Positions 2,133 to 19,830 of a stretch of DNA of 35,091 nucleotides are shown here, piece by piece. The stretch covers positions 1-35,091 of the forward strand of contig WGNN01000092.1 of assembly GCA_016124515.1 (NCBI GenBank), written 5' to 3'. Each line of letters starts with the position of its first letter. The first letter of the stretch is position 1. Source of the DNA: a bacterium. GTDB lineage: Bacteria > Bacteroidota > Bacteroidia > CAILMK01 > JACPUW01. The notes beneath the pieces were generated by a model. It was not told the origin of the DNA. It searched no databases and saw nothing but the letters and a program-made list of their open reading frames with translations. The translations under genes and the position numbers were made by a program.

Positions 2133-2286
2133 TTTATTGCTTGTTCATTATATGCTTAAGGCTTCACCAAAATGGCTGAAATCTGATTTTCGGTTCTCAA
2201 AAAGGTGTTTTCTTCATCTGCAAACGCAACACTTTCATTTATGCGCTTGGTTATTTTTTGGCTTTTTTACTGCCATGATCCGTCGG

Positions 2287-3087
2287 TTATTTAAATGGCG
2301 AATCGGGCTCTTTTTTTACAAAGTTGTAGGTCATTTTGTCCATAAACGAATTGAACAATTTGTTGAGCAAAACGGTGACTTTGCCCATTGGTGTCAGTAT
2401 CAACACTTTTTTGCGCTTGTCAATGGCTTTTATCATGTGCTCTGCCACTTCCTGTGCAGTCATCAGCTTGCCTTCGTTCAGCGGTGATTCGCCTTGTTGG
2501 CTGCCATCGGCGGTAAGGGCGGTATTTCTTATATTGCTCTCGGTGTAGCCCGGGCAAAGGGTAAGCACATGCAAACCTGTTTTCAGGTTTTCGGTTCGGA
2601 GGGCTTCTAAAAAACCGTTCATGGCAAACTTTGAAGCGGAATATCCGGTGCGGGCAGGCAAGCCTCTGAAACCCGCTATGCTCGATACACCAACCACAGT
2701 GCCTTGGCTTGCTATAAGGTGTTTAATGGCGTATTTGGTGCAATATACCATGCCCCAAAAGTTGATGTCCATACTTTGCTTAAGTACTTTCAAATCAAGG
2801 TCTTCAAAAACCGCTCGCATAGAAATTCCTGCATTGTTTACCAACACGTCTATGCGGTTATAGGCTTTCAGCGTTTCGTCAATCAACTGTTTGCAGTCGG
2901 CTTCCACGCTCACATCGCAGGCCACTGCTATGCATTGCACGCCATGTTTTTCGCACTCGGCCTTTGTTTCGTTGAGCCGGCTTAGGTTGCGAGCGGCTAT
3001 GGCGGTGTGGTATCCGCGGCGGGCAAAGGCCACCGCGCAAGCCTTGCCAATGCCTGATGAGGCTCCGGTGATGATGGCTACTTTCAT
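2287..3087 (-). CDS. Short-chain dehydrogenase/reductase (SDR family)
   Basis: NAD(P)-dependent oxidoreductase with a classical SDR Rossmann fold, substrate unknown. From the ATG at 3087 it is 266 residues. The cofactor motif TGASSGIG is at 7-14, NNAG at 84-87, the catalytic serine is in the VSSIAG segment at about 135, and the YSASK motif gives Tyr149 and Lys153. The frame is open up to 3132, but the extra 15 residues precede the normal SDR beginning (MKVAIITG), so I take 3087. A basic, hydrophobic C-terminal extension (about residues 225-266) could associate with membrane, as in some SDRs that act on lipids; that is inference. It is transcribed away from the GNAT-like gene at 3235. Confidence 0.92.
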   Translation of the reverse strand: MKVAIITGASSGIGKACAVAFARRGYHTAIAARNLSRLNETKAECEKHGVQCIAVACDVSVEADCKQLIDETLKAYNRIDVLVNNAGISMRAVFEDLDLKVLKQSMDINFWGMVYCTKYAIKHLIASQGTVVGVSSIAGFRGLPARTGYSASKFAMNGFLEALRTENLKTGLHVLTLCPGYTESNIRNTALTADGSQQGESPLNEGKLMTAQEVAEHMIKAIDKRKKVLILTPMGKVTVLLNKLFNSFMDKMTYNFVKKEPDSPFK

Positions 3088-3234
3088 GCGTAATTTGTTG
3101 TGGTGAAGCAGCTTTTTATTGCCCAACACCATCTGTTGCTACGCAGGTGTTGCAAGGCAAAAATGAAAAGCACCGCACCATTAATTTCCATTCAATTTTT
3201 TGTTGAAGTTTGCAAAGGTGATAAAATTCGCACA

Positions 3235-4398
3235 ATGAAGGTGTTGGAAGTACATGACAAGAAGACCAAAGCGCTTTTTCACAAGACGCTAAAAACCATC
3301 TACCACAGCGACTCCAACTATGTGTATCCGTTGGAAAGCGACATTGAATTTGTGTTTAATCCAACTAAAAATCCCGCTTTCAACAATGGAGAAGCCATTC
3401 GCTGGGTATTGTTGAATACAAAAGGAACGCCCATTGGCAGGGTGGCTGCTTTTTATGACCTCAACCAACAGCAGGAAACGCCTTACCCGGTGGGCGGCAT
3501 GGGTTTTTTTGAATGCATTGATGATGAAGATGCGGCCAAGTTGCTGATGGACACTGCTAAAAACTGGTTGGAAGCCCACGGGATGAAAGCCATGGATGGC
3601 CCCATAAATTTTGGTGAAAGAGATAAATTCTGGGGATTGCTGGTGGACGGTTTTACCCAGCCAACTTATCTCGAAAATTACAATCCGGCCTATTACCGGC
3701 GGTTTTTTGAAAATTATGGATTCAGGCAATACATAGAACAAGACACCTACCGAATAGACAGGCAAAGTTTTGATGCCAAGCGTTTTACCAAAGTGGCGGA
3801 GTGGATAAGCCGCAAGCCGGGATTTAAGTTTGAGCATTTCAGAATGGCCGAGGTAGAGCGTTTTGCACGCGATTTTGTGACCGTTTACAACAGCGCCTGG
3901 GAGAAGTTTGTAAACTTTAAACCCATAACCGTGGAGCAGGTAATGAGCACCATGAAAGCCATGAAAAATATTCTGATAGAAGATTTTATTTGGTTTGGCT
4001 ACGTAAACAACGAGCCCGCCGGCATAATGGTAATGATACCGGATGTAAACCAGCTTTTGGCACACATGGAAGGCAAAATGACCGCTTTGAATAAACTCAG
4101 GTTTTTGTACCTGAAAAACGTGCGAAAAATGACGCGCGCCAAGGGACTTGTGTTTGGCGTGGTGCCAAAATACCGAAAGTACGGTGTGGAAACGGTGATG
4201 ATTTACCGCTTTTACAAAACCGTTTCGCAAACCTGGCAATACAATACCGTGGAGCTTAGCTGGGTGGGCAAATTCAATGAGCGGATGGCGGCGTTGATGC
4301 AGAATATCAATGCACACGTGGCAAAAAAGCACTTGACCTACCGCTATTTATTTGACGATAGCTTGCCTTTTGAGCCTTACAAAATCAAGTCAGAGTAA
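3235..4398 (+). CDS. GNAT-like acyltransferase family protein
   Basis: A protein of 387 residues resembling a Bacteroidota family usually annotated as a GNAT-fold N-acetyltransferase of unknown substrate. The N-terminal half has a GNAT-like pattern: a RWVLLNTKGTPIGRVAAF strand pair, followed by a PVGGMGFFECIDD segment and an amphipathic helix (AAKLLMDTAKNWLEAHGM). The C-terminal half repeats an acetyltransferase-like arrangement around the FGVVPKYRKYGVET segment. The frame is open from 3100, but residues before the ATG at 3235 look noncoding, and MKVLEVHDKKTK is a natural start. There is no signal peptide or membrane segment, so it is probably cytoplasmic. Its neighbours give no pathway clue. 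The family call is moderate and the substrate unknown. Confidence 0.7.
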   Translation: MKVLEVHDKKTKALFHKTLKTIYHSDSNYVYPLESDIEFVFNPTKNPAFNNGEAIRWVLLNTKGTPIGRVAAFYDLNQQQETPYPVGGMGFFECIDDEDAAKLLMDTAKNWLEAHGMKAMDGPINFGERDKFWGLLVDGFTQPTYLENYNPAYYRRFFENYGFRQYIEQDTYRIDRQSFDAKRFTKVAEWISRKPGFKFEHFRMAEVERFARDFVTVYNSAWEKFVNFKPITVEQVMSTMKAMKNILIEDFIWFGYVNNEPAGIMVMIPDVNQLLAHMEGKMTALNKLRFLYLKNVRKMTRAKGLVFGVVPKYRKYGVETVMIYRFYKTVSQTWQYNTVELSWVGKFNERMAALMQNINAHVAKKHLTYRYLFDDSLPFEPYKIKSE

Positions 4399-4732: not shown

Positions 4733-6493
4733 ATGCGCTTGTTGCTAGCCTTTTTGTTATTGCCGGCTTTGTGCGAGGCACAGTATATTAGCCACGGACC
4801 TGTTATTGGTGCTGTTACCGATTCGTCGTGCAAAATTTTTGTCAGATGCCCGGCAAGCGACATGGTGGAGTTGCAATACGCCACCGATTCGTCATTTTCG
4901 TCGCCACGCAGTGTGCAAGTGCCTGTAGATGCTGCCAACGATTCAACGGCTATCATTAAACTTAGCAATTTGGAGGCTTTTACCCGCTACTTTTACCGCT
5001 TCAATATTGGTGGAAAAACCGATGAACGCCACGGGTTTTTTACCACTTTCCCCACAGAAAATACATCTGCGCATTTTACCTTGGTAACGGGCTCGTGTCA
5101 AGAAACCGACAATATGAAAGTGTTTAAGCGCATGGCAGAATTGGAGCCGTTATTATTTTTACATAGTGGCGATTTTACCTATCCGAGTTACCAACTCAAC
5201 GATTCTTATCCGGCAAATTACCAAACAGTGGTGCAATCGTGGCACCGCAAATACGAGGAAAAAAGAATGCACCGCATGCTCTACAAAGTTCCGATTGATT
5301 ACGTGAACGATGACGATGATGGCTACGGCACAGAGCAGAATTATTGGCTCAATACACGTTATAAAAAGGAGGGCTCCAAAATAATAAACTACATAACGGT
5401 GGATACGCTACCTGTGGCGGGCAGGTATAATGTAAATAAGGCCTACAGCAATTTGTTTCCGCACTACCAACTGCCCGATACCGCAAATGGTTTGTACCAC
5501 AACTACCGTGTGGGCAATGTGGAGGTGTTTTTTCTTGATTCAAGAGCCAATGCTGCACCCTACAATGAGGCTTTTGTTTATGACGAAAAAAGTAATAATT
5601 GGAGCTTTGCACCCGACAGCAGCCACCGCATTTTGGGCAGGGCGCAAATGAATTGGCTCAAAAGCAGCCTGAAGAAATCTGATGCCCAATGGAAAATTAT
5701 AGTAAGTGGTGTCCCTTTCAACAAAAGCTTGAAAAAGTTGGTTGATTTTGGTTTGATGTTTCAGAATTACGAATTGCCTTATGGCAAAAGCACCGCCACT
5801 GGTTTTAAGCTTGCCACCTCCTTTGCCGCGTATTGGGCAGGTTATCCGCAAAGTCAGCGCGAACTACTTTCTTTTGTAAAAGTCCATTCAATTGAGAATG
5901 TACTGTTCGTGTCGGGCGACAGCCACCACAATGTAATAGATGATGGTGGCAACGCAGGTTTGCCCGAATTGAATGCGAGCGGCATGAGTGTGACCGACCT
6001 GAGTCTTGCGTTTCAAATAGATAAGTTTTCATCAACCATGGGTTATGCTGTGCGCGATTCTTTTTGGAATGGCGGTGGAAACGGCCTGGGCAACAACCCG
6101 AATTTTAACAATGCTTTTGGCAAAATAGAAGTATTTGGCAATGACTCGTTGCGCCTAAGTGTAGTGGACGAAAACGGGACAACTATAGCAAAAACCACCC
6201 TATTTGCTGAAGTAGAAACTTCTGCGAGGGCGGTTAAACCAATGCATTTGGTTGTTTATCCCAATCCGGCCAATGACCAAATATATCTGCAAATGAGCGA
6301 AGATTTGGTAAATGAATCCGCTATCTTGAAAGTGGTAAACAGCTCCGGCAAGGTGGTTTTTCAAGAAACAACGCGTGTGCGCTCCCGCCATACACTTTCA
6401 GTGACGCATCTACCGGCAGGTATTTACCAGCTCCAACTTGCTACTGCCACAAAGGTGGCTTTCGGTAAGTTTGTGCTTGTTGGCCGGCAGTAG
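4733..6493 (+). CDS. Secreted PhoD-like metallophosphatase with T9SS C-terminal sorting domain
   Basis: Probable extracellular or cell-surface phosphatase/phosphodiesterase of the PhoD-like calcineurin superfamily, 586 residues. It has an N-terminal signal peptide (about 1-16, ending CEA). A fibronectin-like N-terminal domain covers about 17-108, as in PhoD proteins, and the metallophosphatase core about 114-480. Motifs are GSC at 120-122, GDFTY at 146-150, an acidic NDDDDGYG segment at about 192-199, GRAQMNWLK at 302-310, SGVPF at 325-329 and GDSHHN at 395-400. The C-terminal 85 residues form a type A T9SS sorting domain: a YPNP motif near 509, an SSGKVVF strand and a PAGIYQLQL motif. This implies Sec export, then T9SS passage and surface attachment or release. 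The canonical DDHD stretch reads DDDD here. The gene stands alone and converges on the EPS operon. Confidence 0.88.
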   Translation: MRLLLAFLLLPALCEAQYISHGPVIGAVTDSSCKIFVRCPASDMVELQYATDSSFSSPRSVQVPVDAANDSTAIIKLSNLEAFTRYFYRFNIGGKTDERHGFFTTFPTENTSAHFTLVTGSCQETDNMKVFKRMAELEPLLFLHSGDFTYPSYQLNDSYPANYQTVVQSWHRKYEEKRMHRMLYKVPIDYVNDDDDGYGTEQNYWLNTRYKKEGSKIINYITVDTLPVAGRYNVNKAYSNLFPHYQLPDTANGLYHNYRVGNVEVFFLDSRANAAPYNEAFVYDEKSNNWSFAPDSSHRILGRAQMNWLKSSLKKSDAQWKIIVSGVPFNKSLKKLVDFGLMFQNYELPYGKSTATGFKLATSFAAYWAGYPQSQRELLSFVKVHSIENVLFVSGDSHHNVIDDGGNAGLPELNASGMSVTDLSLAFQIDKFSSTMGYAVRDSFWNGGGNGLGNNPNFNNAFGKIEVFGNDSLRLSVVDENGTTIAKTTLFAEVETSARAVKPMHLVVYPNPANDQIYLQMSEDLVNESAILKVVNSSGKVVFQETTRVRSRHTLSVTHLPAGIYQLQLATATKVAFGKFVLVGRQ

Positions 6494-6668: not shown

Positions 6669-6699
6669 TTTTAAAAGGCATTTGAATCCCCTTTTAAAA
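6669..6699 (-). other. AT-rich inverted repeat at the 3' end of the EPS operon
   Basis: TTTTAAAAGG at 6669-6678 and CCTTTTAAAA at 6690-6699 form a 10-bp perfect stem with an 11-base loop, overlapping the last codons of the phosphotransferase gene. No T-run follows on the minus strand, so it is at best a weak terminator or an RNA-end stabiliser. No better terminator is visible in the convergent gap 6494-6670. Confidence 0.3.
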
Positions 6700-8059
6700 G
6701 CTGAACGATGGTAAGAAAGAACACCTTAATCTCGAGCAAAAACGTCCATTTAGAAATGTAGTAGTGGTCAAATTTGACACGGTTTTCCATCTCTTCTGAT
6801 TTTTTGGTTTCTCCGCGAAAACCTTTGGCTTGAGCAAGTCCTGTGATGCCTGGCTTAATGGCATGCCTATAGCCAAAGTCTTTGATTTTATTTTTGAACC
6901 CTTCGTTTAGAGGTATTGGATGTGGGCGAGGCCCTACTATGGACATATCTCCCTTCAAGACATTAATAAATTGTGGTAGTTCATCAAGGCTCGTCTTTCT
7001 AAGGAGCCTGCCTATTGGTGTGATTCTTGGGTCGTTTTTTGAAGCCTGCTTAAATTCGATATTATTGTGCAGGTACATTGTTCTGAATTTAAAGCACATG
7101 AACGTTTGTCCTTTTTCACCTTCTCTGGGCTGAAGGAAAAATACTGGACCGTTAGACGTGACCTTTATCAATAATGCAATTACAGGGAAGAGCCAGCTAA
7201 GGACAAATATGAAGACAAGTACTGAGAATAATACGTCGAAAAATCGCTTCAATTGTCTATTGTGCAGTTCTTCCAAAGGGGAGTGCGTAAGGTGCATGAC
7301 AGGTAGCTTTCCGATTTGGCTAATTTCTATTTGAGTACCATAATCTTGACTCATAATAGGAATCATGGTCACATCAATATGGTGGTTTACTGAAAGTTGA
7401 AGTAGTGTGTCAAGGATGTTTTGCGGCAGGTTATATGAGCAATAGAATATTCTTTCTGATCTTTTCTTTTTTAGAATATTCAGTAGTTTTTCCTTGTTCT
7501 CAATGGTTTCGGGCTTAATGTAGCCCGCTCCCTTTAACCCAAATTCCTTATGTTCTTGAAGAAATTTTTCAATGGTCTTTGCATCATATTCATTGCCCAT
7601 AACCACATATTGCTCAATAAAGTAGCCTCGCAACCGCATTTGTCTTATAAAAGAAATGCCTGCAACACGCCATAAAATTACGCCTTGTATGATCATACTA
7701 TAGGTGATGAACAATTGCTTGGTAGGGTAGTATTCCACTTGATGAACAGATAGGAAAGCAGTTGCAAGGAAGAAGTGAATTATTGTGATTTTAAGGTTAA
7801 GCTTCACTACCCTGTAGATAGTTACTGTTCGCTTATTGTGGTACGCATCATAAAAATGCGTCAGAATTATCCATAGCACATTGGAGTAGAGTAGGAAATA
7901 GAGGTAAGGTTTTTCCGCAAGAATGGTGAGTATATCTATTTTCCCATATCGGATTAAAAAAGACAGGAAAAAAGCAGAGTTGATAATGATCTGGTCTATA
8001 CATAATTGTATAATGTCAAAAAAAAACCAGGTCCCTTTTTTAGAACTGAGTAATGGCAT
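6671..8059 (-). CDS. Polyprenyl glycosylphosphotransferase (initiating sugar transferase, WcaJ/WbaP type)
   Basis: Inner-membrane enzyme that starts repeat-unit assembly by moving a sugar-1-phosphate from a nucleotide sugar to undecaprenyl phosphate; 462 residues. The N-terminal half has about four membrane segments (within 12-125) followed by a nucleotide-binding-like regulatory domain around 145-240. The C-terminal bacterial sugar transferase domain begins near residue 268 (KRFFDVLFSV) with one further membrane segment. It carries the family motifs PVFFLQPREG, CFKFRTM, a SLDELPQFINVLKGDMS segment, VGPRPHP and KPGITGLAQ. Start ATG at 8059. It is the last gene of the nine-gene EPS operon, 56 bp after the fusion gene. 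Which sugar it uses (glucose, galactose or another) cannot be told from the sequence. Confidence 0.94.
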   Translation of the reverse strand: MPLLSSKKGTWFFFDIIQLCIDQIIINSAFFLSFLIRYGKIDILTILAEKPYLYFLLYSNVLWIILTHFYDAYHNKRTVTIYRVVKLNLKITIIHFFLATAFLSVHQVEYYPTKQLFITYSMIIQGVILWRVAGISFIRQMRLRGYFIEQYVVMGNEYDAKTIEKFLQEHKEFGLKGAGYIKPETIENKEKLLNILKKKRSERIFYCSYNLPQNILDTLLQLSVNHHIDVTMIPIMSQDYGTQIEISQIGKLPVMHLTHSPLEELHNRQLKRFFDVLFSVLVFIFVLSWLFPVIALLIKVTSNGPVFFLQPREGEKGQTFMCFKFRTMYLHNNIEFKQASKNDPRITPIGRLLRKTSLDELPQFINVLKGDMSIVGPRPHPIPLNEGFKNKIKDFGYRHAIKPGITGLAQAKGFRGETKKSEEMENRVKFDHYYISKWTFLLEIKVFFLTIVQLLKGDSNAF

Positions 8060-8115: not shown

Positions 8116-10389
8116 TTACATTTTATATTTTATTGATAGTAGAGTTCCAAAAATTTGATACATATCACCTGTGTCGTAAGCTAGTGACAAAGTTGTTTCC
8201 AATTGCTGTTTTTTCATCTTGATGTCGTATTGGTGGCTTATACTAAAGGCAGAATAGGTTTGATTTAAAGGTGTGTTAAAAGGATTTTTTGATGGGTCAA
8301 AGTTATTATTAAATTCTTTCCATGCAAAGCGGCCACCATGTTTCTCGGTATATGTGCCAAAATTTGTGGTAAGTGTGACATTTATTTTATATGTTAAATT
8401 ATTCCTAATAAAACCTGAAATTTCTATATGATGTGCGGTTAACCGATTGTTAACGATTTGAACACCATAATTTGGATAGGCTGGCCAAAAGCTTAAAGTT
8501 CTGTTATAGGTGAGTATTAGTGGATTGGCCATGACCAATCCTTTGTATGTATAGCCGTCTCGGTAGAGATAATTGTTGTAATAATCATCTCTACCACCCA
8601 GTGTCATACCGTTGGTTATGCTTCCACTTACCGAAGTGTCGGGCAGCCCCTCACCACTTTGGTAGGTAGTTCTTACGTATTCATACGTAATACTCTTAAT
8701 CTTTGGTGCCTTCTGCTTGAAACTCACATTTATCCCATAAAGGCCATCTGGGTTTTTTTTGAGAAAATAGCGCCTTCCACTATTGTCTTCAAACAGATAC
8801 TGGTAGTGCAGTCGAATATCAACTTTCTTAATGCGTTGGTAATATAGAAGGTCATAAACACCAATGTGGCTACCAAGCCGATTTAGCTTTTCTCCGGAGA
8901 GTATGGTCCACTCATCAGACCTTCGTGCTAAAAAGACATTCCAAAATTCATTTGGAATTTTAATACCTGAGCGTAAAGTACCTCCATAAATGGCGCTATG
9001 GTTTACCGTCGCCGTTAGGGTTGCATAGTGTGGATGGCCTAAGCGAATTCCCGCCGATTTATGGTGAAACATTCGGTGTAAGGTAACGCTGCTATTGCCC
9101 AGATAGCCAATGGAAAAGTGTCCTTTCAAAGCCACCCTATTTTTAAGTTTACTAAAAGTAAGATTATTGCTTCCAATGACAAATTGAGGTATTGGTACAG
9201 CATTGTTGCTCAAAAACAAACTTGTATTGCCCGATGATGGAAACCCTTTGTTGGGCCTGAATGTGAACCGCCCCACTTTGATAAAAAACGAATAGTAGGA
9301 AATTTTGCTAGAGAGATTTTGAATGCGTGCGTAAGGCTTGGCTGTGCTGGCAAAAAAAAGAGCTTTGTTGGTAATGGCAAAATTGTGTTTAAGGGTATCG
9401 CGTTTATGATAACCTGCCATTAATGCGCTATTTGCTTGGTTGTCAGGTATTATTCCTTGTTGATTGAACTCATGGTAGAAGGGTTGAAAACCTTTGGTGG
9501 CCACCGCGCTCACCGAGGTGATACTATATGGATGCTCAGTAACCGCCGTGTCATTTTGTGCCTGGCAGTACGCAAAGGGCCAAATGCTCAAAAGAATTAA
9601 TAGTAAGAGTGTAGGTGTTTGTTTTCGTCTCAAATATTTGGAAATAAGCAAGGGAAGTAATGCCAAGGGTTCAATAAGATATCGCTTGTATAACCTTTGA
9701 GGCTCGTTATATAGGCGGAAAAGCCACTCTAGCCCTATGGGGCCAAGCCAACGGGGTGGTTGTTTTTGAATGCCAATGAAATAATCAAAGCAAGCACCAC
9801 AATTTAACGTCACTGAGGCCGAAAGCTGCTCATGGTTGTTTGCAATCCACTCTTCCTGTACCGGCATACCCATACCTACCAGCAGCACATGAGGATTGCT
9901 GCTGTTTATTTCATTGATTAGCGCAGTGTTTTCAGCACTTCCGATGGTACGGTCAAAATAGCCATTATGGGCGTGGAATTGGATATTAGGAAAATCTGTG
10001 CCAACAAATGAAATCACCTTTGACAGGTTTTCTTTTTTGCCACCAACAAAAAAAACATGCCAGTGCCGCTCATTGGCCATTTGAAGCAGAGGTTTTAACA
10101 AATCTACATAGGTGATGCGATTTGTGCTGTTGAGCTTAACTCCAAAGGCACGCGCTAGCCACACCAAAGGCATACCATCAATAAAATTGAAAAGTGCTTT
10201 TTGATAAAAAGACCTAATTTCTTCATGATTGTGGTATAGGTATAGACTATGCAGGTTGTGGTTGCCAATGATGGCGTTTTGCTTTTCGCTACACAAACCA
10301 TCTATGGTATTCAGCAGACGGCCAAGTGTCATATCACTTAATTTGACATCTGCTACTTCAAACTGAGCTGGCAATTCAGTAGCTTTCAT
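8116..10389 (-). CDS. WecG/TagA/CpsF-family glycosyltransferase fused in frame to a Wzi-like outer-membrane barrel
   Basis: One uninterrupted frame of 757 residues joins two proteins expected on opposite sides of the envelope. Residues 1 to about 240 are a GT26 transferase: NFIDGMPLVW near 68, GMGMPVQEEWI near 172-182, GACFDYFIG near 198, and WLGPIGLEWLFRLYNEPQRL near 214. It would add a sugar to the lipid-linked intermediate at the cytoplasmic face. Residues about 253-277 form a perfect signal peptide: basic LRRKQ, a leucine-rich core, and AYCQA before QNDTA. The remaining 480 residues are strand-rich with aromatic girdles and a GGRDDYYNNYLYRDGYTYKG motif, as in capsule-assembly Wzi-type barrels. 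The frame is open from 10443, but the ATG at 10389 is preferred because it overlaps the upstream gene by only 14 bp. A second product could start at the TTG at 9633. Domain calls are strong; expression as one chain is uncertain. Confidence 0.85.
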   Translation of the reverse strand: MKATELPAQFEVADVKLSDMTLGRLLNTIDGLCSEKQNAIIGNHNLHSLYLYHNHEEIRSFYQKALFNFIDGMPLVWLARAFGVKLNSTNRITYVDLLKPLLQMANERHWHVFFVGGKKENLSKVISFVGTDFPNIQFHAHNGYFDRTIGSAENTALINEINSSNPHVLLVGMGMPVQEEWIANNHEQLSASVTLNCGACFDYFIGIQKQPPRWLGPIGLEWLFRLYNEPQRLYKRYLIEPLALLPLLISKYLRRKQTPTLLLLILLSIWPFAYCQAQNDTAVTEHPYSITSVSAVATKGFQPFYHEFNQQGIIPDNQANSALMAGYHKRDTLKHNFAITNKALFFASTAKPYARIQNLSSKISYYSFFIKVGRFTFRPNKGFPSSGNTSLFLSNNAVPIPQFVIGSNNLTFSKLKNRVALKGHFSIGYLGNSSVTLHRMFHHKSAGIRLGHPHYATLTATVNHSAIYGGTLRSGIKIPNEFWNVFLARRSDEWTILSGEKLNRLGSHIGVYDLLYYQRIKKVDIRLHYQYLFEDNSGRRYFLKKNPDGLYGINVSFKQKAPKIKSITYEYVRTTYQSGEGLPDTSVSGSITNGMTLGGRDDYYNNYLYRDGYTYKGLVMANPLILTYNRTLSFWPAYPNYGVQIVNNRLTAHHIEISGFIRNNLTYKINVTLTTNFGTYTEKHGGRFAWKEFNNNFDPSKNPFNTPLNQTYSAFSISHQYDIKMKKQQLETTLSLAYDTGDMYQIFGTLLSIKYKM
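9559..9633 (-). other. Internal signal peptide with possible TTG translation start
   Basis: Within the fusion gene, codons from TTG at 9633-9631 onward encode a classic Sec signal peptide: a charged RRK start, about 13 hydrophobic residues, and an A-Y-C-Q-A cleavage region. No ATG lies near it in any minus-strand frame. The TTG would be a legitimate start in this genome, where several genes appear to use TTG. Cleavage after the final Ala would release the Wzi-like barrel to the periplasm whether translation starts here or upstream. Confidence 0.6.
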
Positions 10390-11422
10390 TAAAAAGGCTT
10401 TCAAGCGTTTTTTGTAAGTTTTGGGAGAGTACTGGTGCCTCATTTTCGGGCTTGTTCACTTCGCTGTCAAACTCTTGAATTTTGTTTGATACAGGAAAGG
10501 CTATTATTTCCCGCGCATATATTTTGCCTAGTATTAAGGCATGCATACGTCCGGCAACAAGGGTTTTTGCTCCACCAATGTTTTCGATAAAATGAGGTAA
10601 TGACTCATTTTCGAGAAGGGGTATTTGTATTTGATGGTTTTGTTGCATGTATGCCTGAAATTGCAGACTTTCCGTTGCATCTGCCTTTGTAGTGTATATA
10701 AGGTAAATGTTCTTGGGGTTGTCAAGATGAGGCGCCAATAGCGCAACCCATTTTTTGTAGTACATCTCTCGTGAAATTTTTTCGCGATAGCGGGCATAAA
10801 CGTTTAGATCCGTGACTCCAACCAGCACATTAGTATTTTGAATTGGCTGAACCGGATATTTTTCGGGTAGTAAAAAAGCCCAGTCAGGAGCCGCTGCTAT
10901 AGTTTTATGAGTTAGCGCTTCCATTCGTTTCTTCGAAGCAAGGTCGCGCACCAGTATTTTTGAACATTTTGAAAGGCTTTTTTTGTAGAGCCACTTGTCT
11001 ATCGGTTTCAATTGATTTGCCACACCTACCCCCAATACCATTACTTTAGCGTTAAAAAAGTGCTTTGCCAAAATGGTCCAAACAAAAAAAGCCATGGGAA
11101 AATGACCATTTGAAAGAATCAATTGTCCGCCACCAATTACTACATAATCGTAGTTATTTCTTAGTGCTTTCAAAAGTCGAGGCAGGTGTTTTGCTATCCA
11201 TCTCAATTTATGCGGTAACAGCTTTTTGAGTTGCCAATTTCTTGTTTGACCATTGTTTTTGTCCGGTGCGCACAAGATGGGTTCTTTGCATTCACGGGTA
11301 AAATCTGCAAAGTCTACCTCATTTTCTTTAGACAGATAGTGCCTGGCGGCTTGCATAATGGCTTGATCGCCTAAATTGTCGCTGTAGCCTTCGTTGACCA
11401 AAAGTATTTTTCTAGTTTTCAT
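10376..11422 (-). CDS. Polysaccharide pyruvyl transferase family protein
   Basis: Likely attaches a pyruvyl ketal (from phosphoenolpyruvate) to a sugar of the repeat unit, giving the polymer acidic groups; cytoplasmic, CsaB/EpsO-like fold, 348 residues. The family signature is visible: an N-terminal NEGYSDNLGDQAIM segment at about 10-23, VVIGGGQLILS at about 94-104 in the first domain, VLGVGVANQ, and the C-terminal VAGRMHALILG motif containing the conserved Arg-Met-His. Start ATG at 11422, overlapping the preceding glycosyltransferase by 11 bp. Its 3' end overlaps the fusion gene by 14 bp. Some members of this family modify cell-wall polymers rather than EPS, but the operon context favours EPS. 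Confidence 0.9.
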   Translation of the reverse strand: MKTRKILLVNEGYSDNLGDQAIMQAARHYLSKENEVDFADFTRECKEPILCAPDKNNGQTRNWQLKKLLPHKLRWIAKHLPRLLKALRNNYDYVVIGGGQLILSNGHFPMAFFVWTILAKHFFNAKVMVLGVGVANQLKPIDKWLYKKSLSKCSKILVRDLASKKRMEALTHKTIAAAPDWAFLLPEKYPVQPIQNTNVLVGVTDLNVYARYREKISREMYYKKWVALLAPHLDNPKNIYLIYTTKADATESLQFQAYMQQNHQIQIPLLENESLPHFIENIGGAKTLVAGRMHALILGKIYAREIIAFPVSNKIQEFDSEVNKPENEAPVLSQNLQKTLESLFNESY

Positions 11423-12482
11423 TCAATAAGTCAACAAATTTTTTGCTCATGGCATGGTAAGAAAAGGTTTGTGCTTTTTGGTAGCTTTTTAAGCGCATGT
11501 CTAGTAGTTTGTCGGGGCTTTTTAGAATCGACTCCAAAGTCTCACTCCAATCCTTTAATGCAAGTGGATGTAAACATATACCCGCAGTTTCATGGCCATT
11601 TTGTAGTACTTCTCTATTGGGCTCAATATTGCTAGCTATGATGGGTAGTCCAAAAGACATGGCTTCAAGCAGGGCGTTGCTCATACCTTCAAAATGGCTT
11701 GGGAATAGAAACAAATCAAGGCTTTTATAGAATTCTTCAAGTTGCTGTTTTGGAAGCTCACCATGCAGGAATACACGGTCTTGTAATTGGTACCGTGCTA
11801 TTTGTTGTTCCAACTGATGCCTCAGTTCACCTTCGCCCGCAATGTGGAGCTCAAGGTCACGGTGTTTGTGTGCAAGCTCAATAAGCAATTGTTGGTTTTT
11901 TTGTTTAGCAAGCCTACCCACATTGCCCGCTTTTACGGGCTTCGAAGTTTTGTGCTGTATCATTTCATGCATGTGTACTCCGTTGTAGATAACACGGCAT
12001 TTTTTTAAATATTTAGTTGAGAGATTTGAAAATGATGCTTGTACGGATTGAGACACCATGGTTATGTTGGTATAAACAGGCAAGAAGCCAAATACGGGAT
12101 CCAATAGTCGGGCTATGACAGGATAGCTCTGTAATGGATTTCGTTGGGAGGCTATTCTTGTTTTTACACCAGACAAAAATGCAGCGGCACACGCCAATAT
12201 ATTGGCATAGTGGGTAAATGTAATGACCGCAGCGGGTTTTTCTTTTTTAAGGTGAATATACAGGGAAATGAAAATACCTGGGTAATTGATTAGACTGACG
12301 TTCTTTTTCCGCGATAGGATCATCATATTGCTGAAATGTGCAAATGCCATTCGCTTTTGGTAAAGAAAGAGCAGCGGTGCACTGTAGCCCATTTGTTCAA
12401 GTTGCTTTGATAACTCCACTGCAGCGTTCTGTGCACCACCGGCTTCAAGTTGAGTGCATATAATAAGTACTTTTTCAGGCAT
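11412..12482 (-). CDS. GT4-family glycosyltransferase
   Basis: Retaining GT-B glycosyltransferase expected to extend the lipid-linked repeat unit at the cytoplasmic membrane; 356 residues. The N-terminal domain opens with the typical acceptor loop (QLEAGGAQNAAVELSKQL, about 11-28). The C-terminal donor-binding domain begins at NVGRLAKQKN, followed by LHIAGEGEL, VFLHGEL and the donor-site signature FPSHFEGMSNALLEAMSFGLP. Start ATG at 12482. It overlaps the gene before it by 8 bp and the gene after it by 11 bp, so translation is probably coupled. Donor and linkage cannot be predicted by eye. Confidence 0.92.
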   Translation of the reverse strand: MPEKVLIICTQLEAGGAQNAAVELSKQLEQMGYSAPLLFLYQKRMAFAHFSNMMILSRKKNVSLINYPGIFISLYIHLKKEKPAAVITFTHYANILACAAAFLSGVKTRIASQRNPLQSYPVIARLLDPVFGFLPVYTNITMVSQSVQASFSNLSTKYLKKCRVIYNGVHMHEMIQHKTSKPVKAGNVGRLAKQKNQQLLIELAHKHRDLELHIAGEGELRHQLEQQIARYQLQDRVFLHGELPKQQLEEFYKSLDLFLFPSHFEGMSNALLEAMSFGLPIIASNIEPNREVLQNGHETAGICLHPLALKDWSETLESILKSPDKLLDMRLKSYQKAQTFSYHAMSKKFVDLLNEN

Positions 12483-13653
12483 TGGAATTGACGGTTTTCA
12501 GGTATAGTGAAGATATGCTACGGCAATAGTTGCTAAGCGTAAACTCTGTCGTGACACGTTTATAACCATTTTGAGTTAAAGTGCTTCTTAGTCCTTTATT
12601 GTTATATAATTCAACAATTTTCTGACTCAATTGAATGTGCGATATAAGCCTGAGTGGTAGTTTTTCGGTTGAGGTGACGTCAACTTCTCCAGTGTTGAAT
12701 GGCGCTACAGCTAGCTTCTCAGGCTTTATCAATAAACCTGTTTCTCCATCAACAACTGCTTCGGGAATGCCACAGGTTAGTGGTGCAATGAGTGGCACAC
12801 ATGCCATATTGGCTTCAAGCAACACATTGCCAAAGGATTCGCGAAGGGAAGTGTTTACAAAAACATCAAAGGCAGAAAGTAATCGTCGTGCATTGGCTTT
12901 TTCGCCGGCAAATGTTACTTTATCTTCAATTTGTAGTTCAATACTCAATTGACGGAGTAGTTGCTCCATTTCACCCGAACCGATAATCAACAAACGACAC
13001 TCAGGAATTTGACTGACAATATTTTTAAATGTGTGCAACAAAACATGGAAACCTTTTTGATTGACTATCCGTCCTACACTACCTATTACAAATTCGCGCT
13101 CTTCTATTTTCAGTTCTTTTCGTGCCAAAGTTTTTGAAAGAGGTTCAAACCAAGGTATTGGATTATAAATCACATGAATTTTTTCCGGATTCAAGTTGTA
13201 CTGCGTGACTAGAGCTTTTTTACTGGCCTTTGAGTTAGCCACAATATATTCAGCAGCCCGATTTGCTTTACGGTCAAACCATTTTTTAGTACCCTGATTA
13301 TTCCATACGCTGCCATGTTCACCGGTTATTATTTTTAAACGAGGATGTAATAGTCGACACAGATAACCTACAATATTTGCATTTGAATTGTAGCAGTGCA
13401 TCACTTCTATTTGGTGGGCTTTCAGATATTTCACTATTTGCAAAAGGCCTGTTGGATCCTTTCTATACATTCTTCTGGGCTCAAAATGTGGAATATGACC
13501 ACTTTTTATTTCCTTAAGTACGTCAATAGATGACGATGTGGTTATCAAATGGTGTTCAAAATTGGGCTCGGGTTTCGCCAGCAAGAAGTCCTTTAACATT
13601 ACTTCAATGCCTCCCAGTCGTGTCATGGTGCTTAAGTGTGCTATTTTATACAT
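12475..13653 (-). CDS. GT4-family glycosyltransferase
   Basis: Second GT-B fold, GT4-type transferase of the operon, 392 residues. The N-terminal acceptor-domain motif is STMTRLGGIEVMLKDF (about 8-23), with GEHGSVW near 120. The C-terminal domain starts GSVGRIVNQKGF, then LLIIGSGEMEQLL, VTFAGEKANARRLL and the nucleotide-sugar motif NTSLRESFGNVLLEANMA. Start ATG at 13653, overlapping the polymerase gene by 8 bp. Between the initiating transferase, the GT26 domain and the two GT4 enzymes, the operon encodes at most four obvious sugar-adding activities. Confidence 0.92.
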   Translation of the reverse strand: MYKIAHLSTMTRLGGIEVMLKDFLLAKPEPNFEHHLITTSSSIDVLKEIKSGHIPHFEPRRMYRKDPTGLLQIVKYLKAHQIEVMHCYNSNANIVGYLCRLLHPRLKIITGEHGSVWNNQGTKKWFDRKANRAAEYIVANSKASKKALVTQYNLNPEKIHVIYNPIPWFEPLSKTLARKELKIEEREFVIGSVGRIVNQKGFHVLLHTFKNIVSQIPECRLLIIGSGEMEQLLRQLSIELQIEDKVTFAGEKANARRLLSAFDVFVNTSLRESFGNVLLEANMACVPLIAPLTCGIPEAVVDGETGLLIKPEKLAVAPFNTGEVDVTSTEKLPLRLISHIQLSQKIVELYNNKGLRSTLTQNGYKRVTTEFTLSNYCRSISSLYLKTVNSNA

Positions 13654-14962
13654 AGATTAATGCGGGTTTTTTGATGTAGTTGAAAACTATGCCCAACACA
13701 ATCATTCGTATCATTAGCTGGTGAGGATCATAAAATGGATTGGCGAAAAGTGCCGTGAACAAAAAAAATAGTAATGATGACGTAGCAAGGTTGCGGAACA
13801 CTACAAAATGATCATCCTGAATGGTGCTGCCATAAGCATTTTTGAGAAGTACGATGGTTTGAAAGAAGAACCAGCCAAAGGCAAAGAAGCCAATTATTCC
13901 CAGTTCACCCAATATATTTAAATAAGAATTATGCGCATGTTGGGCAGGGAAAAGTGATGATGCAGCACTCAAATGCTCATAGCTGTAGAACCCGGAGCCA
14001 AACAATGGGTGCTGCTGGAATAACCCAATTGCAAAAAGCCAAAAGTATAAGCGTCCAACGATATTTGAACCCCGGTCAATAGCCACCTGACCACCCTTAA
14101 AGCTGGGTACCGAATCTTGTACGCGCAGTATGAAATAATTTTGACCGCTGTAGTTTATAATGAATAAATAGATTGGGAGTGCCACAATAAACAGGATGGC
14201 AATTTGCATGAAAAACCGCTTTTTATTCATTACTTTCCATGACTCAATAATATAGGTACCAATGCATGCAAATGCATAACCAAGTATACTGGCCCGAACA
14301 GAAATTCTTATTAGTAGTATAAAACACAAAAGACTGAGGAGTGCGTAAACAACTCTGCGCCCTTTTATAGTTTTGGCCATCGCAAAATAATATAGTCCTA
14401 TAATGGCAAGAATTGCTGACCAACCATGCGCCGAAGTATCACTCCAGTACATACCAAAAATTTCTCGGCCAGCGGTCTGATTGGCATCGTGATTGAGTGT
14501 TGTAAGAAAAGAAGGAAGTGGCAACGATTTTGAAATATCCCAATATACTGTTTGAAGCAGGCAAATGAGCAAGGCAGGAAACGATACCCACCTCAGTGTT
14601 TTGCTTATAAGCTGAGGTAAAACTGTAATTTTTTTTGCAAAATGTAAGGTGATAAAAAACGTTGATAATGCAAGAATTATTCTTATGGCATTGAGTATGG
14701 AGTCTTTAACAACCTGACCAGGGTAGTGATGGATTTTGGTGCTGATTGCCGAACCCAATAATATCGTCATTAGTAAAATTATTGACCACTTGAACCTGTG
14801 ACTTTTTAACGTATAGTGTCCCTGTAGTGCCGCCGAATAGGTAATAAAGCCACCTATAGTAATGATAGCCAAGTCCTCAAGTCGCATAGTAATGCCTAAC
14901 GAGAGCCACAGTTGCATAAAGCACAGAACTACTAAAAGTGGTATGCTCTGCTTTATTGTCAT
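13646..14962 (-). CDS. O-antigen polymerase/ligase family membrane protein (Wzy role)
   Basis: Polytopic inner-membrane protein of 438 residues with roughly ten to twelve hydrophobic segments. A large periplasmic loop follows about residue 260 and carries the motif HAHNSYLNILGELGIIGF (near 345-362), which is characteristic of the Wzy_C/O-antigen ligase family. In this operon it most likely polymerises repeat units on the periplasmic side after flipping; a ligase role is less likely because Wzx, Wzz and Wza partners are present. Start ATG at 14962, overlapping the flippase stop by four bases (ATGA). The DNA is AT-rich compared with argS or dusB, as is common for polymerase genes in variable surface-glycan loci. 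Confidence 0.88.
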   Translation of the reverse strand: MTIKQSIPLLVVLCFMQLWLSLGITMRLEDLAIITIGGFITYSAALQGHYTLKSHRFKWSIILLMTILLGSAISTKIHHYPGQVVKDSILNAIRIILALSTFFITLHFAKKITVLPQLISKTLRWVSFPALLICLLQTVYWDISKSLPLPSFLTTLNHDANQTAGREIFGMYWSDTSAHGWSAILAIIGLYYFAMAKTIKGRRVVYALLSLLCFILLIRISVRASILGYAFACIGTYIIESWKVMNKKRFFMQIAILFIVALPIYLFIINYSGQNYFILRVQDSVPSFKGGQVAIDRGSNIVGRLYFWLFAIGLFQQHPLFGSGFYSYEHLSAASSLFPAQHAHNSYLNILGELGIIGFFAFGWFFFQTIVLLKNAYGSTIQDDHFVVFRNLATSSLLFFLFTALFANPFYDPHQLMIRMIVLGIVFNYIKKPALIYV

Positions 14963-16371
14963 TTGCCAAATTGGATAAAATGTGCCTTAATAGCGATAAT
15001 AAGAACAATTAGCAATGAACTGTACACGAGCAACACTAAGAAGTAACCTGTGCTGCACAAGACTAATGGAACTGTTAATAGTGTTGACATGAGTAGGACT
15101 TTTGAAACCGGGAGGTAAGCTTGTATGATTCTTTTTCGCGAAAATTTACCTAGACTATGCAACTTAAAAATATAATATCCCACCATTGGTAGGTAAACGA
15201 TTAAGGTAGATAAAATGGCTCCCAAATATCCCAAACGCGGAATGAGCAGTATGTTGAGAAATATATTGGCAGCCGCCACGAAACCAACAATTTTGGCTCG
15301 TGTTTTTATGTAGCCCAAGTAGTCAAAAACAGGGCTATATAGGGTGCTGAGTGCTCTGGCAAAAATGAATGGGATAAATAAATATATAAGTTGAACAACA
15401 GGTGTGTATTTTTCGCCAAAAAGCAATGGAATAACCACGTGTGCACTAGTCGCCAATGCAAATGCCAAGAGTATATATGGTATAGAAACATTAAGTGTCC
15501 ACTGGCTCAATTTTTTTCTAAACGTTCTATATTCTTTTTGAAAATCCACAAAATGAGATGCGATTGCATTACTAATGGCAATTGCCAGCACTTGACTCGT
15601 ATCGGCAATTCGTGCAGCAATACCATATATGCCCACTGACTCGCTATTTGTGAAGTATTGTACCAATAGGATGTCACTTCGAAGGAATATTTGCATGCTT
15701 AGGCCACTCATAAAAAGTGGAAGACTGGTTTTGATACTCTGAATAAATGTGGTGGGCTCCAGATCGAAAGTTGGTTGGGGTGTATTTTTTATGGTGATGG
15801 CAATTTTCGTTGAAATAATTATCAGAAACGGTATGTAGCCAACAATATAGCCTAGAAGCACCATAAAACTGCTTTGGGAAATAAAGGAAGCAAGCAGGGT
15901 GAATAGCCAAGGCATCCAACCACTAATAATATGTACTTTGGCATATATGTCAAATGTCTTGATGCCCTGATAGAACTTGCTTCCGAGATCTTCAATAATC
16001 ACAGCCAACGCTAGAATTATAATTAGGTAAGCTTGAGATACGAGACTTTTGATGTTAAAGAATTCACTCAGTTTATCGGCTAGGAAGAGTGACGCTCCAC
16101 AAACTAAAGTGCCAAATAGAGCAATTTGTTTTAATGCAACTAATAATTCGTTTTTAAGGTTTTTTTCCGACGTCGAAGCCAATCTTCTTGACATGGAAGT
16201 GCTTGCGCCGAAATCAGAGAATAGAGCTAGGATATATGCGAATGATATGGCAAAGGTAAACTCACCAAAATTCTCTACACTGATGTTTCTTGATATTATT
16301 ATAATTGCCAATAGTTTTATAATAACCTGTAGAAACCTTGCCGATATTGCAGTCACAATTCCTTTTGCCAC
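14959..16371 (-). CDS. Lipid-linked oligosaccharide flippase (Wzx role, MOP/polysaccharide transport family)
   Basis: A 470-residue membrane protein with about 12-14 hydrophobic segments and the N-terminal pattern of polysaccharide-biosynthesis flippases (SVENFGEFTFAISFAYILAL near 30-50, FSDFGASTSMSRRLA near 52-66). It would move the undecaprenyl-linked repeat unit to the periplasmic face. The start is GTG at 16371, one base after the stop of the chain-length gene; no in-frame ATG near the beginning fits better. It overlaps the polymerase gene by ATGA. The DNA is visibly AT-rich; one sampled 60-base line (15361-15420) has only 16 G or C. Confidence 0.92.
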   Translation of the reverse strand: MAKGIVTAISARFLQVIIKLLAIIIISRNISVENFGEFTFAISFAYILALFSDFGASTSMSRRLASTSEKNLKNELLVALKQIALFGTLVCGASLFLADKLSEFFNIKSLVSQAYLIIILALAVIIEDLGSKFYQGIKTFDIYAKVHIISGWMPWLFTLLASFISQSSFMVLLGYIVGYIPFLIIISTKIAITIKNTPQPTFDLEPTTFIQSIKTSLPLFMSGLSMQIFLRSDILLVQYFTNSESVGIYGIAARIADTSQVLAIAISNAIASHFVDFQKEYRTFRKKLSQWTLNVSIPYILLAFALATSAHVVIPLLFGEKYTPVVQLIYLFIPFIFARALSTLYSPVFDYLGYIKTRAKIVGFVAAANIFLNILLIPRLGYLGAILSTLIVYLPMVGYYIFKLHSLGKFSRKRIIQAYLPVSKVLLMSTLLTVPLVLCSTGYFLVLLVYSSLLIVLIIAIKAHFIQFGK

Positions 16372-16372
16372 G

Positions 16373-17479
16373 CTATTTGTTTTCTGTAGGGATTTCTTTG
16401 AGTATTGATCTAAGTTTTTGAATAACAGGCTGCAACAACATCAATATAATTCCAAAAGCCAGTCCGAGGAAAGTAAAAACGGTGGTAAGTAAAAAACGCT
16501 GCGGTTTGGACTTTTTTATTGGGTAAGTTGGGTTTTCAAGCACTTTAAATACAGGCTTTGAGTTTTGTACTTTTATGCCCAACTCCTCTTTTTTTTCAGC
16601 CAATGATTTGTAGATGCTGTATTTTAAATCGTATTGATTAAGAAGTTTTTCTTCATTAATTCGAGCTTTTTCGGTCCACATGTTTTGATGCTCATCTCTG
16701 AACTGTGCCAATAAAAGCTGTATGTTTTCAAATTCGGCTTTAGCTTCTAGGGTGCGTGATGCTATGAAATTGTAATTTTCCTGTGCTTTCATGCTCCTGT
16801 AGTTTTCCATATAGTTGGTAAGGTAGCTGTAGCTATAGTCTGCCACGGCAATGGTTAGTTCGGGAGTGGGCATGTGTACAGACAACTTGAATATGCCCGA
16901 CTCAAAATCCAGCTCTGCGGTTATTAGTTTTTTAAGCTCTTCTATGAGCAATATTTCATCTTCGCTCAAGTGCAATTCAGCCAAATGGCCCCTAGGTTCT
17001 GTTGCCGTCTCAATATTATTTTCTTTAAAAAGTGCAGTTATTTTCCCAGGAAGGTTTAATGTATATGCCTTTAAATATACCAAAGGTGATTTTGGCTTTA
17101 ACTCAAGGAAGTAGTACTTCAGGGTTGTTTTATGGTTCTCAATAATAAACGAGTCATTCATGAGATTCACCATAAAATCATTGCTGGCTAATATGCCGGG
17201 GTACAAATCCGGGCGTACTACATCAAGCCCGCCGCCCATGTTGTCAAAGCTAATACCGGTTAGTCCACCTATTTTTTGAAGAAGTTTTGATGAACCAGCG
17301 GCATCTTCAGTATTTATTTCGGGTAAAAGCTTTACTTCACAACTGTACTCTTTAGCGCCAAAAATTGCCATTATCAATCCGAAGGCAAAGCCTATCGCGG
17401 TTGCTTTGAGTAGGAATTTCTTTTTGGAAACAACTAGTTTTACAAAGTACAAAAGATTTATTTCTTTCTCATCAATCAT
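16373..17479 (-). CDS. Chain-length determinant / polysaccharide co-polymerase (Wzz-like) without kinase domain
   Basis: A 368-residue inner-membrane protein with the co-polymerase layout: short cytoplasmic start, membrane helix at about 20-42, a periplasmic region with long coiled-coil-like helices (about 215-300), and a second membrane helix near 330-352 preceded by the proline-rich NPTYPIKKSKPQRF segment typical of Wzz. It ends in a short basic tail, so the tyrosine autokinase (BY-kinase) domain found fused in many Wzc proteins is missing and no separate kinase gene lies in this operon. It would set polymer length and couple Wzy to the Wza-like exporter. Its ATG shares the final base of the upstream stop codon (TAATG), indicating coupled translation. 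Confidence 0.9.
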   Translation of the reverse strand: MIDEKEINLLYFVKLVVSKKKFLLKATAIGFAFGLIMAIFGAKEYSCEVKLLPEINTEDAAGSSKLLQKIGGLTGISFDNMGGGLDVVRPDLYPGILASNDFMVNLMNDSFIIENHKTTLKYYFLELKPKSPLVYLKAYTLNLPGKITALFKENNIETATEPRGHLAELHLSEDEILLIEELKKLITAELDFESGIFKLSVHMPTPELTIAVADYSYSYLTNYMENYRSMKAQENYNFIASRTLEAKAEFENIQLLLAQFRDEHQNMWTEKARINEEKLLNQYDLKYSIYKSLAEKKEELGIKVQNSKPVFKVLENPTYPIKKSKPQRFLLTTVFTFLGLAFGIILMLLQPVIQKLRSILKEIPTENK

Positions 17480-19830
17480 TACATGGTATTTAAAGTGCGA
17501 ATGATTGATACAATTACCAGACTTATTGTAGTGATACCGCTGCTAATAGATAATACTTTTTGTGCTTCAAGCTTATCGCGTTCGGGTTTGTAAGGGATGT
17601 ATATTGTGGCACCTGCAGTTATGTTAGGATACTTCTTAAACAACAAATAGTTTTTGACCCTTTGTGATGTATTATTGGCATAAACCACATAAATCTTTCG
17701 CTTTTGGGCCCTCAGATCAAATCCCCCGGTTTGGTTAACATAATGTCGCAACGATTGTCCTTTTTCAAAATGCAAGGCAATGGGATTTAGAACCGCTCCT
17801 TTTACATTTATTGTTTGTTCTGTACTTGGAATAATTATGCGGTCGCCGGGCAATATTTTAAAATCATCAGTACTTTTCTTGTCTTCAAGTATTTTGTACA
17901 AGTCAATTCCTACTGCATTTATTCCATCTCCGCTTTTTCTCAGAAGCCTGGCACCATTCAGGTCGGCAAGCAAAGTGGTGCCACCTGCACGTGCTATCAG
18001 GTCAGAGAGTTTTTCTGACTTTGATTGTACCACATAGATTCCGGGGTACAAAACTTCTCCTTCAATAATTACGGTGTTTTGAACATGATAGCCCGGTGCC
18101 TTTCTCACTATGATATAATCAAATGCATTCAATTCAAAATCATTGTTTGTGTAGCCAAGGCTCGGGTTTACTTCAAAAGTGAAGAGCTGCGCCAGTTCGT
18201 TGCTGGTCTCAAGACTCTGTATTCGGCGTGCAATTTCTATATTGTTCACAGCAGCTGCATCAGTAAACCCCCCGGCCTGGGCAATAATATCTTGCAGAGT
18301 TATGCCAGGATAATATGGGTAATCGCCACTTTGCATTATTGAGCCTTCTATTTTCACGGTTCTGTTTTCGTGTAGCTCATCAATGAAATATATATGCACC
18401 ACGTCATCTGGTTGAAGCCAAATGGTATCGGTTTCATCTATTACAGAACGCAAGTTGATACTAATTGACTGGCGGGTGTAATTGTCGGTGTATCGCAGCA
18501 AAAGCGCTCTTTCAAGAAATGCGTTTGGATGTAAGCCTTCAGCTTTGTCTATTACATCTAACAGACTTGTTTTTGAGTTAATTTCATAGCTACCGGGCAT
18601 TTGCAAAGCTCCTTCCAATTGTACTCTATTTGCATATTTGTCAATGATTTTTCTTATGAGTAATTTGTCACCATTTTGCAGTGTAAGGCTATTAATTTCA
18701 TCTTTGCTTATATCTTTTATCACATGTTCTCTATCAGTGTTGCGGGTTAACTGTATAAGATTGGTGTAGGCATTGGCCGTAAACCCGCCGGCATATTGAA
18801 TCAGCTTATTAGCACTTTCGCCTTCTTTTAACTCAAACAACCCATTGGTGAGCACCTCGCCACTTATTTCTATTCGTTTGGTGTAGGTTGGTATCAAAAC
18901 GATGTCGCCGTCGCGCAGATACTCATTACTGCTTGCAGTACCTGTCAATAGATATTCATATAAATCAAGTTCCGTTAGCTTTTTGTTGTTCCTAATCAGT
19001 TGAATGTTTCTGAAGCTACCATTTTGATTAGGTCCGCCGCTCACATACAATGCGTGGAAGAGTGTGCTGGTTGATGGTAGTGAAAACGTACCTGGCACTT
19101 CGGCTTGCCCTAGCACAGTGATTTTAATAGAACGGATTTTTCCAATATATACCTGTGCATATGTGTTGTTGCCGGGTGGCTTGAGGCCAACATACAATTC
19201 GCCTAGCCGTGAAATTATTCTGCTGCGGGCATTATTAATACTTAGTCCGGTAACATAGATGGGTCCAATATTTTCAAGCTGAATAAATCCTTCTTTGCTT
19301 ATTAACAGTTGATAGTGTTTTTTTGCTGCTCCCCAAATGTCAATTATTATTTCATCGCCAGGGCCTAAAATATAATTCTCTGGAGTTGGGATATTGATGT
19401 TTGGCTGAAAGGAAACTTTATCTTTTTCGAAGAGACTTTTGCCGAACACCTTATGATTTTTTTCGCTAGTAGTTGTTTTTTGTGGTGGGGTTAGCTTTAT
19501 TTGTGTTGAATCGAATGTAGCTGTGGTCAAGCCACTATCAGGTTGATTCGTATTATTATTTAATTCAACGAGCTTCATACGCTGCACCAATTGATTTGCC
19601 TTGGTGCTACTGAGTCCATTCATTGTGGCAAGCTTCACAAAATCGTTGAAATTGATGTTCTTTTCACTTAATTTTTGTTTAAGCTCAAGAATTTTGGTTG
19701 TAGGAATATCAGCAACGGGATAGCTATTGTACTGAGAGATGTTGATGTTTTTTAACTGTGCAAAACCCTGTACATGAAGACATAAATACAAGACAGTTAC
19801 CACAATAAGCCATTTAGAAATAAGTTTCAT
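17479..19830 (-). CDS. Polysaccharide export outer-membrane protein with six SLBB domains (Wza role)
   Basis: First gene of the EPS operon, 783 residues. A signal peptide covers about 1-24 (ending GFA before Q) with no lipobox. A helical low-complexity region (25-140) precedes the poly_export domain (about 150-232, starting YILGPGDEI). Six SLBB repeats follow, starting near 236, 319, 402, 491, 587 and 674; most carry the G-x-V-x-x-x-G-x-Y/F and AGG signatures. A C-terminal hydrophobic helix (about 758-780) resembles the membrane-spanning helix of Wza. It would form the periplasm-to-surface export channel. Six SLBB domains is longer than E. coli Wza (which is a lipoprotein with fewer SLBB domains) but typical of large Bacteroidota exporters. 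Start ATG at 19830, about 30 bases after the predicted transcription start. Confidence 0.93.
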   Translation of the reverse strand: MKLISKWLIVVTVLYLCLHVQGFAQLKNINISQYNSYPVADIPTTKILELKQKLSEKNINFNDFVKLATMNGLSSTKANQLVQRMKLVELNNNTNQPDSGLTTATFDSTQIKLTPPQKTTTSEKNHKVFGKSLFEKDKVSFQPNINIPTPENYILGPGDEIIIDIWGAAKKHYQLLISKEGFIQLENIGPIYVTGLSINNARSRIISRLGELYVGLKPPGNNTYAQVYIGKIRSIKITVLGQAEVPGTFSLPSTSTLFHALYVSGGPNQNGSFRNIQLIRNNKKLTELDLYEYLLTGTASSNEYLRDGDIVLIPTYTKRIEISGEVLTNGLFELKEGESANKLIQYAGGFTANAYTNLIQLTRNTDREHVIKDISKDEINSLTLQNGDKLLIRKIIDKYANRVQLEGALQMPGSYEINSKTSLLDVIDKAEGLHPNAFLERALLLRYTDNYTRQSISINLRSVIDETDTIWLQPDDVVHIYFIDELHENRTVKIEGSIMQSGDYPYYPGITLQDIIAQAGGFTDAAAVNNIEIARRIQSLETSNELAQLFTFEVNPSLGYTNNDFELNAFDYIIVRKAPGYHVQNTVIIEGEVLYPGIYVVQSKSEKLSDLIARAGGTTLLADLNGARLLRKSGDGINAVGIDLYKILEDKKSTDDFKILPGDRIIIPSTEQTINVKGAVLNPIALHFEKGQSLRHYVNQTGGFDLRAQKRKIYVVYANNTSQRVKNYLLFKKYPNITAGATIYIPYKPERDKLEAQKVLSISSGITTISLVIVSIIRTLNTM

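Follow-up and report, generated by a model that had tools for sequence, protein, structure and literature searches.

Two proteins encoded in one frame, with an internal signal peptide that is cut during export, are known from fbcH of Bradyrhizobium, which encodes a cytochrome b/c1 polyprotein. The fbcH product consists of a polytopic membrane protein followed by a cytochrome anchored in the inner membrane. To our knowledge, this polyprotein is the nearest known precedent for the gene described here, which is likewise one frame with an internal signal, but pairs a cytoplasmic-side enzyme with an outer-membrane barrel. No described fusion of a glycosyltransferase to a barrel was found in the open literature searched, nor did the papers searched contain an experiment on such a fusion.

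Each half has described relatives. The C-terminal appendage through which the GT26 enzyme TagA binds the inner leaflet of the membrane is required for its catalysis (PMC6493773). Wzi is an outer-membrane lectin of group 1 capsules (PDB 2ynk; PMC3791409). Export barrels of the EpsX/AlgE type have 18 strands and no periplasmic plug, and occur with an SLBB export protein in Wzx/Wzy operons (PMC9601211). In Bacteroidetes, most signal peptidase I substrates carry Gln at +1, a preference termed the Q-rule (PMC5837995).

The DNA analysed, a stretch of 35,091 nucleotides (the window), comes from an uncultured member of the Bacteroidota represented by a metagenome bin that is 82% complete. One open frame of 757 codons, with its ATG at 10389 and its stop codon at 8116-8118, encodes in order an intact GT26 (WecG/TagA) domain, a signal peptide lacking an ATG, and a Wzi-like barrel of 18 predicted strands (Table 1); an alternative in-frame ATG lies at 10443. 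The two features that characterize fbcH, namely two complete proteins without an intervening stop and an internal signal with a predicted cleavage site (from sequence features, including Gln at +1), are both present. The genome assembly contains a single PF03808 match and a single PF14052 match, and neither half has a second copy in this 82% complete assembly. Because a full-length alignment (A1) misplaced the barrel halves, the GT26 and barrel parts were modelled separately.

Table 1 Coordinates of the fused gene, its neighbours in the window, and analogous fusions at other loci.
Feature	Position	Strand	Extent or remark	Basis
Fused gene GT26-signal-barrel	8116..10389	minus	757 aa (775 aa from ATG 10443)	frame and Pfam
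GT26 (WecG/TagA/CpsF) domain	9679..10188	minus	residues 68-237	Pfam, alignment, fold match
GT26 C-terminal membrane-binding appendage	9628..9702	minus	residues 230-254	predicted helix 230-254
Internal Sec-type signal peptide (L/M)RRKQTPTLLLLILLSIWPFAYCQA	9559..9633	minus	residues 253-277	sequence, hydrophobicity
In-frame TTG, possible separate barrel start	9631..9633	minus		position where homologues have ATG
Predicted signal peptidase I site A277/Q278	9556..9561	minus	Gln at +1	sequence; Q-rule (PMC5837995)
Mature Wzi-like outer-membrane barrel	8119..9558	minus	residues 278-757; without N-terminal helical bundle	18 predicted strands
WcaJ-like polyprenyl-phosphate sugar transferase gene	6671..8059	minus	directly downstream of fused gene
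Polysaccharide pyruvyl transferase gene	10376..11422	minus	directly upstream; 14-nt overlap with fused gene
Two GT4, Wzy_C polymerase, flippase, GNVR chain-length protein, SLBB export protein	11412..19830	minus		Pfam
Methyltransferase-signal-Wzi fusions	L055 2133-4475; L056 2561-4990; L106 1742-3880; L107 3297-4835; L108 about 1-1030	minus; minus; minus; plus; minus
GT26-beta-helix fusions, family f96	L093 1553-3820; L094 1808-4144; L125 1501-3738; L126 1504-3171	minus; plus; minus; minus

The N-terminal half matched Pfam Glyco_tran_WecG (PF03808) with E=1.8e-49 and 168 bits, against a curated cut-off of 27.4, and is assigned to the WecG/TagA/CpsF family with predicted transferase activity. 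An alignment with 16 GT26 homologues revealed a catalytic-type Asp71 together with Gly72, Pro176, Gly198, Pro230 and Arg232 as invariant, and Arg225 and Arg236 as nearly invariant, so that the catalytic Asp and the C-terminal Arg appendage expected of a GT26 enzyme are both in place. The AlphaFold2 model (pLDDT 89) has TagA 7mpk as its best solved match, with a TM(target) of 0.92. The window enzyme thus resembles TagA/TarA of T. italicus (PDB 7mpk, 5wb4; PMC6493773) in fold, in the catalytic-type Asp, and in a conserved, membrane-contacting C-terminal appendage rich in Arg. It differs in that the appendage is continued by a signal peptide and then by another protein, destined for export. Frame 0 is homologous to other GT26 tails as far as about KYL(RRK), and no frameshift is needed to explain the junction because this homology continues to the tail. 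A TGA in the +1 frame overlaps TTG 9633 (TTGA) in a manner resembling a 4-nt gene overlap; the frame error that this would suggest was rejected on the strength of the same frame-0 homology.

The C-terminal half matched Pfam Caps_assemb_Wzi (PF14052) at residues 388-623 with E=2.6e-10 and 40.3 bits, against a curated cut-off of 30.1. In a Wzi alignment of 22 sequences it carries each of the 14 invariant columns. A profile search with the barrel gave no match among PDB sequences. The barrel model contains 18 strands (pLDDT 79, pTM 0.81), and Foldseek analysis identified Wzi 2ynk as the best structural match (E=2.8e-14), followed by AlgE. Both the window barrel and Wzi come from a capsule or EPS operon. 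The N-terminal periplasmic helical bundle of E. coli Wzi (PMC3791409) is absent from the model, in which only the signal helix precedes the first strand at model residue 36, about 10 residues past the cleavage site, and the window barrel, unlike that Wzi, forms the C-terminal half of a fusion. The strand number, the missing plug and the SLBB partner are shared with the EpsX/AlgE type, although both Foldseek and the Pfam label favour Wzi. The barrel may be a polymer-anchoring relative of Wzi, or it may serve export as EpsX/AlgE-type barrels do (PMC9601211).

Residues 250-282 read SKYLRRKQTPTLLLLILLSIWPFAYCQA/QNDTA, where the slash marks the predicted cleavage point; this junction contains neither a stop nor an ATG, and its in-frame TTG lies at 9633. 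Residues 257-277 form the strongest hydrophobic segment among all 757 residues, and cleavage after A277 would fit both signal peptidase I and the Q-rule. A simple home-made signal-peptide rule, applied to 88 long frames in about 340 kb of the same genome, flags two with a lone internal signal-like segment behind at least 180 soluble residues; by this crude rule, such a segment is unusual but not unique there. A sequence-only reading had described a complete GT26 domain and a Wzi-like capsule-assembly barrel in one uninterrupted frame, a signal peptide between them without an ATG, the TTG at 9633 and a cleavage point before QNDTA, and the domain matches, fold models and junction analysis agree with it on each of these points. 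It had also placed the two halves on opposite sides of the envelope. This is correct, and less paradoxical than it appears, since the GT26 C-terminus binds the inner leaflet, where the signal begins (PMC6493773).

The fused gene lies in a Wzx/Wzy-type (capsule-type) cluster that spans 19830 to 6671 on the minus strand, in the order SLBB export, GNVR chain-length, flippase, Wzy_C, two GT4, pyruvyl transferase, GT26-barrel and WcaJ-like. From 19830 to 8116, the genes abut or overlap by 1-14 nt. The export protein (17479-19830, minus) combines several SLBB domains with one hydrophobic segment at its C-terminal end; it is long and not of the short D1D2 type of EpsX systems. It could conceivably pair with the barrel in a composite export channel. 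Elsewhere in the window, a phosphoesterase-like protein (4733-6493, plus) carries at its C-terminus a sequence (PNPANDQIYL...) similar to a type IX secretion sorting domain, and a long, repetitive, Tyr/Ser/Asn-rich beta-helix-like secreted protein (32155-35091, plus) runs off the window.

The GT26-Wzi fusion was found in only one of the 12 genomes of its order, that of the window. In another genome (G005), wzi is separate, has its own ATG and adjoins a sugar transferase gene. A whole-protein search of genome contigs gave no match, and a barrel-only search gave six relatives, all unfused; an ATG is present at the signal peptide in 22 of the 22 unfused Wzi homologues examined. No second GT26-Wzi frame occurs among 76 GT26 places in 395 genomes of the class, where no other frame reaches this length, no second such fusion among the roughly 150 GT26 matches listed from 396 genomes of the phylum, and a plasmid search returned no record covering both domains. 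In G135, the two genes are adjacent as GT26-TAATG-wzi, with KLG-stop followed by MVRR where the window has KYL/RR. Sequence comparison suggests that this arrangement is the likely parental layout, and that the fusion likely arose in one small step, by loss of the stop/start pair between abutting operon genes.

The interpretation offered by the sequence-only reading is therefore partly supported. The loss of a stop between two genes, which it had listed as one of three options beside a long precursor and a restart at TTG 9633, is the likely origin in any case. The comparison of one protein with two adjacent genes, which it had proposed, yielded a singleton fusion and the separate pair in G135. 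It had also held that relatives with invariably separate frames and an ATG at the signal peptide would point to an error or a strain-specific mutation. Such separate frames are indeed what the order contains, for which no close relative with GT26 beside wzi was available, but five species of another genus keep an analogous enzyme-barrel fusion. Conservation is thus seen for analogous fusions only, and not among relatives of the window protein itself.

Other long frames were encountered in these searches. A 497 aa frame (L057, 1835-3328, plus) comprises GT26 with an unassigned C-terminal extension of about 250 aa, and in family f84 (L096-L100, and L101 at 1921-3306, minus) GT26 lies at the C-terminal end of longer frames of 450-600 aa; the N-terminal half of L101 appears sugar-transferase-like by eye, and no exported part was seen in it. 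At Wzi or GT26 genes of G495, G452, G533, G417, G496, G573, G068 and G167, long frames reflect mechanical upstream extension or other N-terminal sequence and were rejected as fusions of this kind.

Analogous joins were identified in two other lineages. In genus g122 (family f53), a class I methyltransferase (PF13489), a signal and a Wzi-family barrel follow one another without a stop in five species (G351, G293, G736, G734, G271), with 67-91% identity in the pairs compared; the G734 and G271 frames run off contig ends, yet cross the junction. The cleavage site reads A/QSMPVG in all five, so the predicted cut exposes Gln there as in the window protein. These fusions share with it a cytoplasmic enzyme, an internal signal and one continuous frame, and differ in the enzyme family, the five-species conservation and a barrel from another Wzi subgroup. 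At L055, a KSG..LG segment is duplicated in frame within the signal region. Stand-alone wzi genes with an ATG occur in the same genus (G196) and family (G247, G731, G387). In family f96, GT26, one hydrophobic segment and a right-handed beta-helix domain are joined in G591, G638 and G750, and also in G751, whose frame is truncated by a contig end; in G591 and G638 the hydrophobic segment has no clear cleavage site. In G459 of the same family, a GT4-type protein, then the signal-like segment LAAFAPLVAIAGLLLFAAVPFAQA/APPQQ, then a beta-helix occupy one frame (L102, 2122-4899, plus), and each half matches separate genes of its kind. A further GT4/beta-helix candidate, in G770, appeared as one long frame in the search, but direct translation gave a stop after GT4, and it was discarded. 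Joining a cytoplasmic transferase to an exported domain through an internal signal or anchor appears from these genes to be tolerated, and the methyltransferase-Wzi and GT26-beta-helix forms to have been kept across species.

The reading we favour, with a probability of about one half, is that a single precursor is made, with GT26 in the cytoplasm, and that the internal signal is cut by signal peptidase I to send the barrel to the outer membrane. GT26 would be translated first and fold in the cytoplasm, with its C-terminal helix on the inner leaflet running straight into the internal signal. The signal would enter the Sec channel in an orientation that leaves its N-side cytoplasmic, and signal peptidase I would cut after A277. 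The spent signal (residues about 254-277) would keep GT26 at the membrane near its lipid-linked substrate, and the released barrel precursor, beginning with Gln, would insert in the outer membrane. We infer that the junction is translated and cleaved, and that both halves reach these locations and are active.

A genuine cut precursor is more probable because the same kind of join arose separately in other lineages, and the three other fusion kinds (methyltransferase-Wzi, GT26-beta-helix, GT4-beta-helix) argue against mere accident. The stop may nonetheless have been lost recently in this strain, or the join may be a misassembly, the long protein then being a mutant form without a selected role. 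That the exact fusion is a singleton leaves this explanation about a quarter of the probability: wzi is separate with its own ATG in G005, a small deletion in a G135-like layout would suffice, and the source bin is incomplete. Against it, neither domain has decayed and both are single copy, the GT26 frame stays homologous as far as the tail, making a frame error superfluous, and comparable fusions persist across species elsewhere.

Slightly less probable, and on balance unlikely, is an arrangement of nested genes, in which the barrel is also or mainly made from TTG 9633 with an ordinary N-terminal signal, while ribosomes starting at 10389 make the long protein. From this TTG, TTG-RRKQTPT... 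would form a normal signal peptide of homologue-like length where homologues have their ATG, genes overlap tightly throughout the operon, and an in-frame GTG (V-K-S) is retained at the same relative place in the methyltransferase-Wzi fusions (four of the four g122 species with codons listed). However, the unfused homologues all use ATG at this position, and the start context of TTG 9633 is ordinary, at the 73rd percentile of internal TTGs in a model trained on the same genome, and has a U at -3, which in F. johnsoniae marks genes that are poorly translated (PMC6847099). The long product would also remain; every model has the upstream enzyme synthesized in one chain with the barrel, given the absence of a stop between the domains. 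That GT26 stays attached to the barrel as one uncut two-membrane protein is highly improbable. An N-in anchor that escapes cleavage is plausible for the GT26-beta-helix relatives without a clear site, but nothing direct favours one here. The window site suits signal peptidase I and agrees with the Q-rule, and the roughly 10 residues between signal and first strand in the model are far too short to span the periplasm, leaving the outer membrane out of reach of an uncut protein.

More interesting than the singleton is the recurrence of this architecture, with conservation in two other lineages. Tentatively, and at somewhat less than even odds, Bacteroidota may repeatedly evolve 'cut-on-export' precursors in polysaccharide operons, in which a cytoplasmic sugar- or methyl-transferase, an internal signal and an outer-membrane or exported partner would yield, through signal peptidase I, a membrane-tethered enzyme and an envelope partner in a single round of translation. 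The window protein would be one case. Annotation pipelines name such genes for one domain and miss the location of the other. If the cut precursor is real, it would provide a natural example of a cleavable internal signal that follows a large, folded domain in the cytoplasm and leads to an outer-membrane barrel, and a good substrate for questions of Sec targeting. Processed as proposed, one message would give the inner-leaflet repeat-unit enzyme and the polymer-handling barrel in a fixed ratio of equal amounts, and the spent signal peptide would be retained as the enzyme's anchor.
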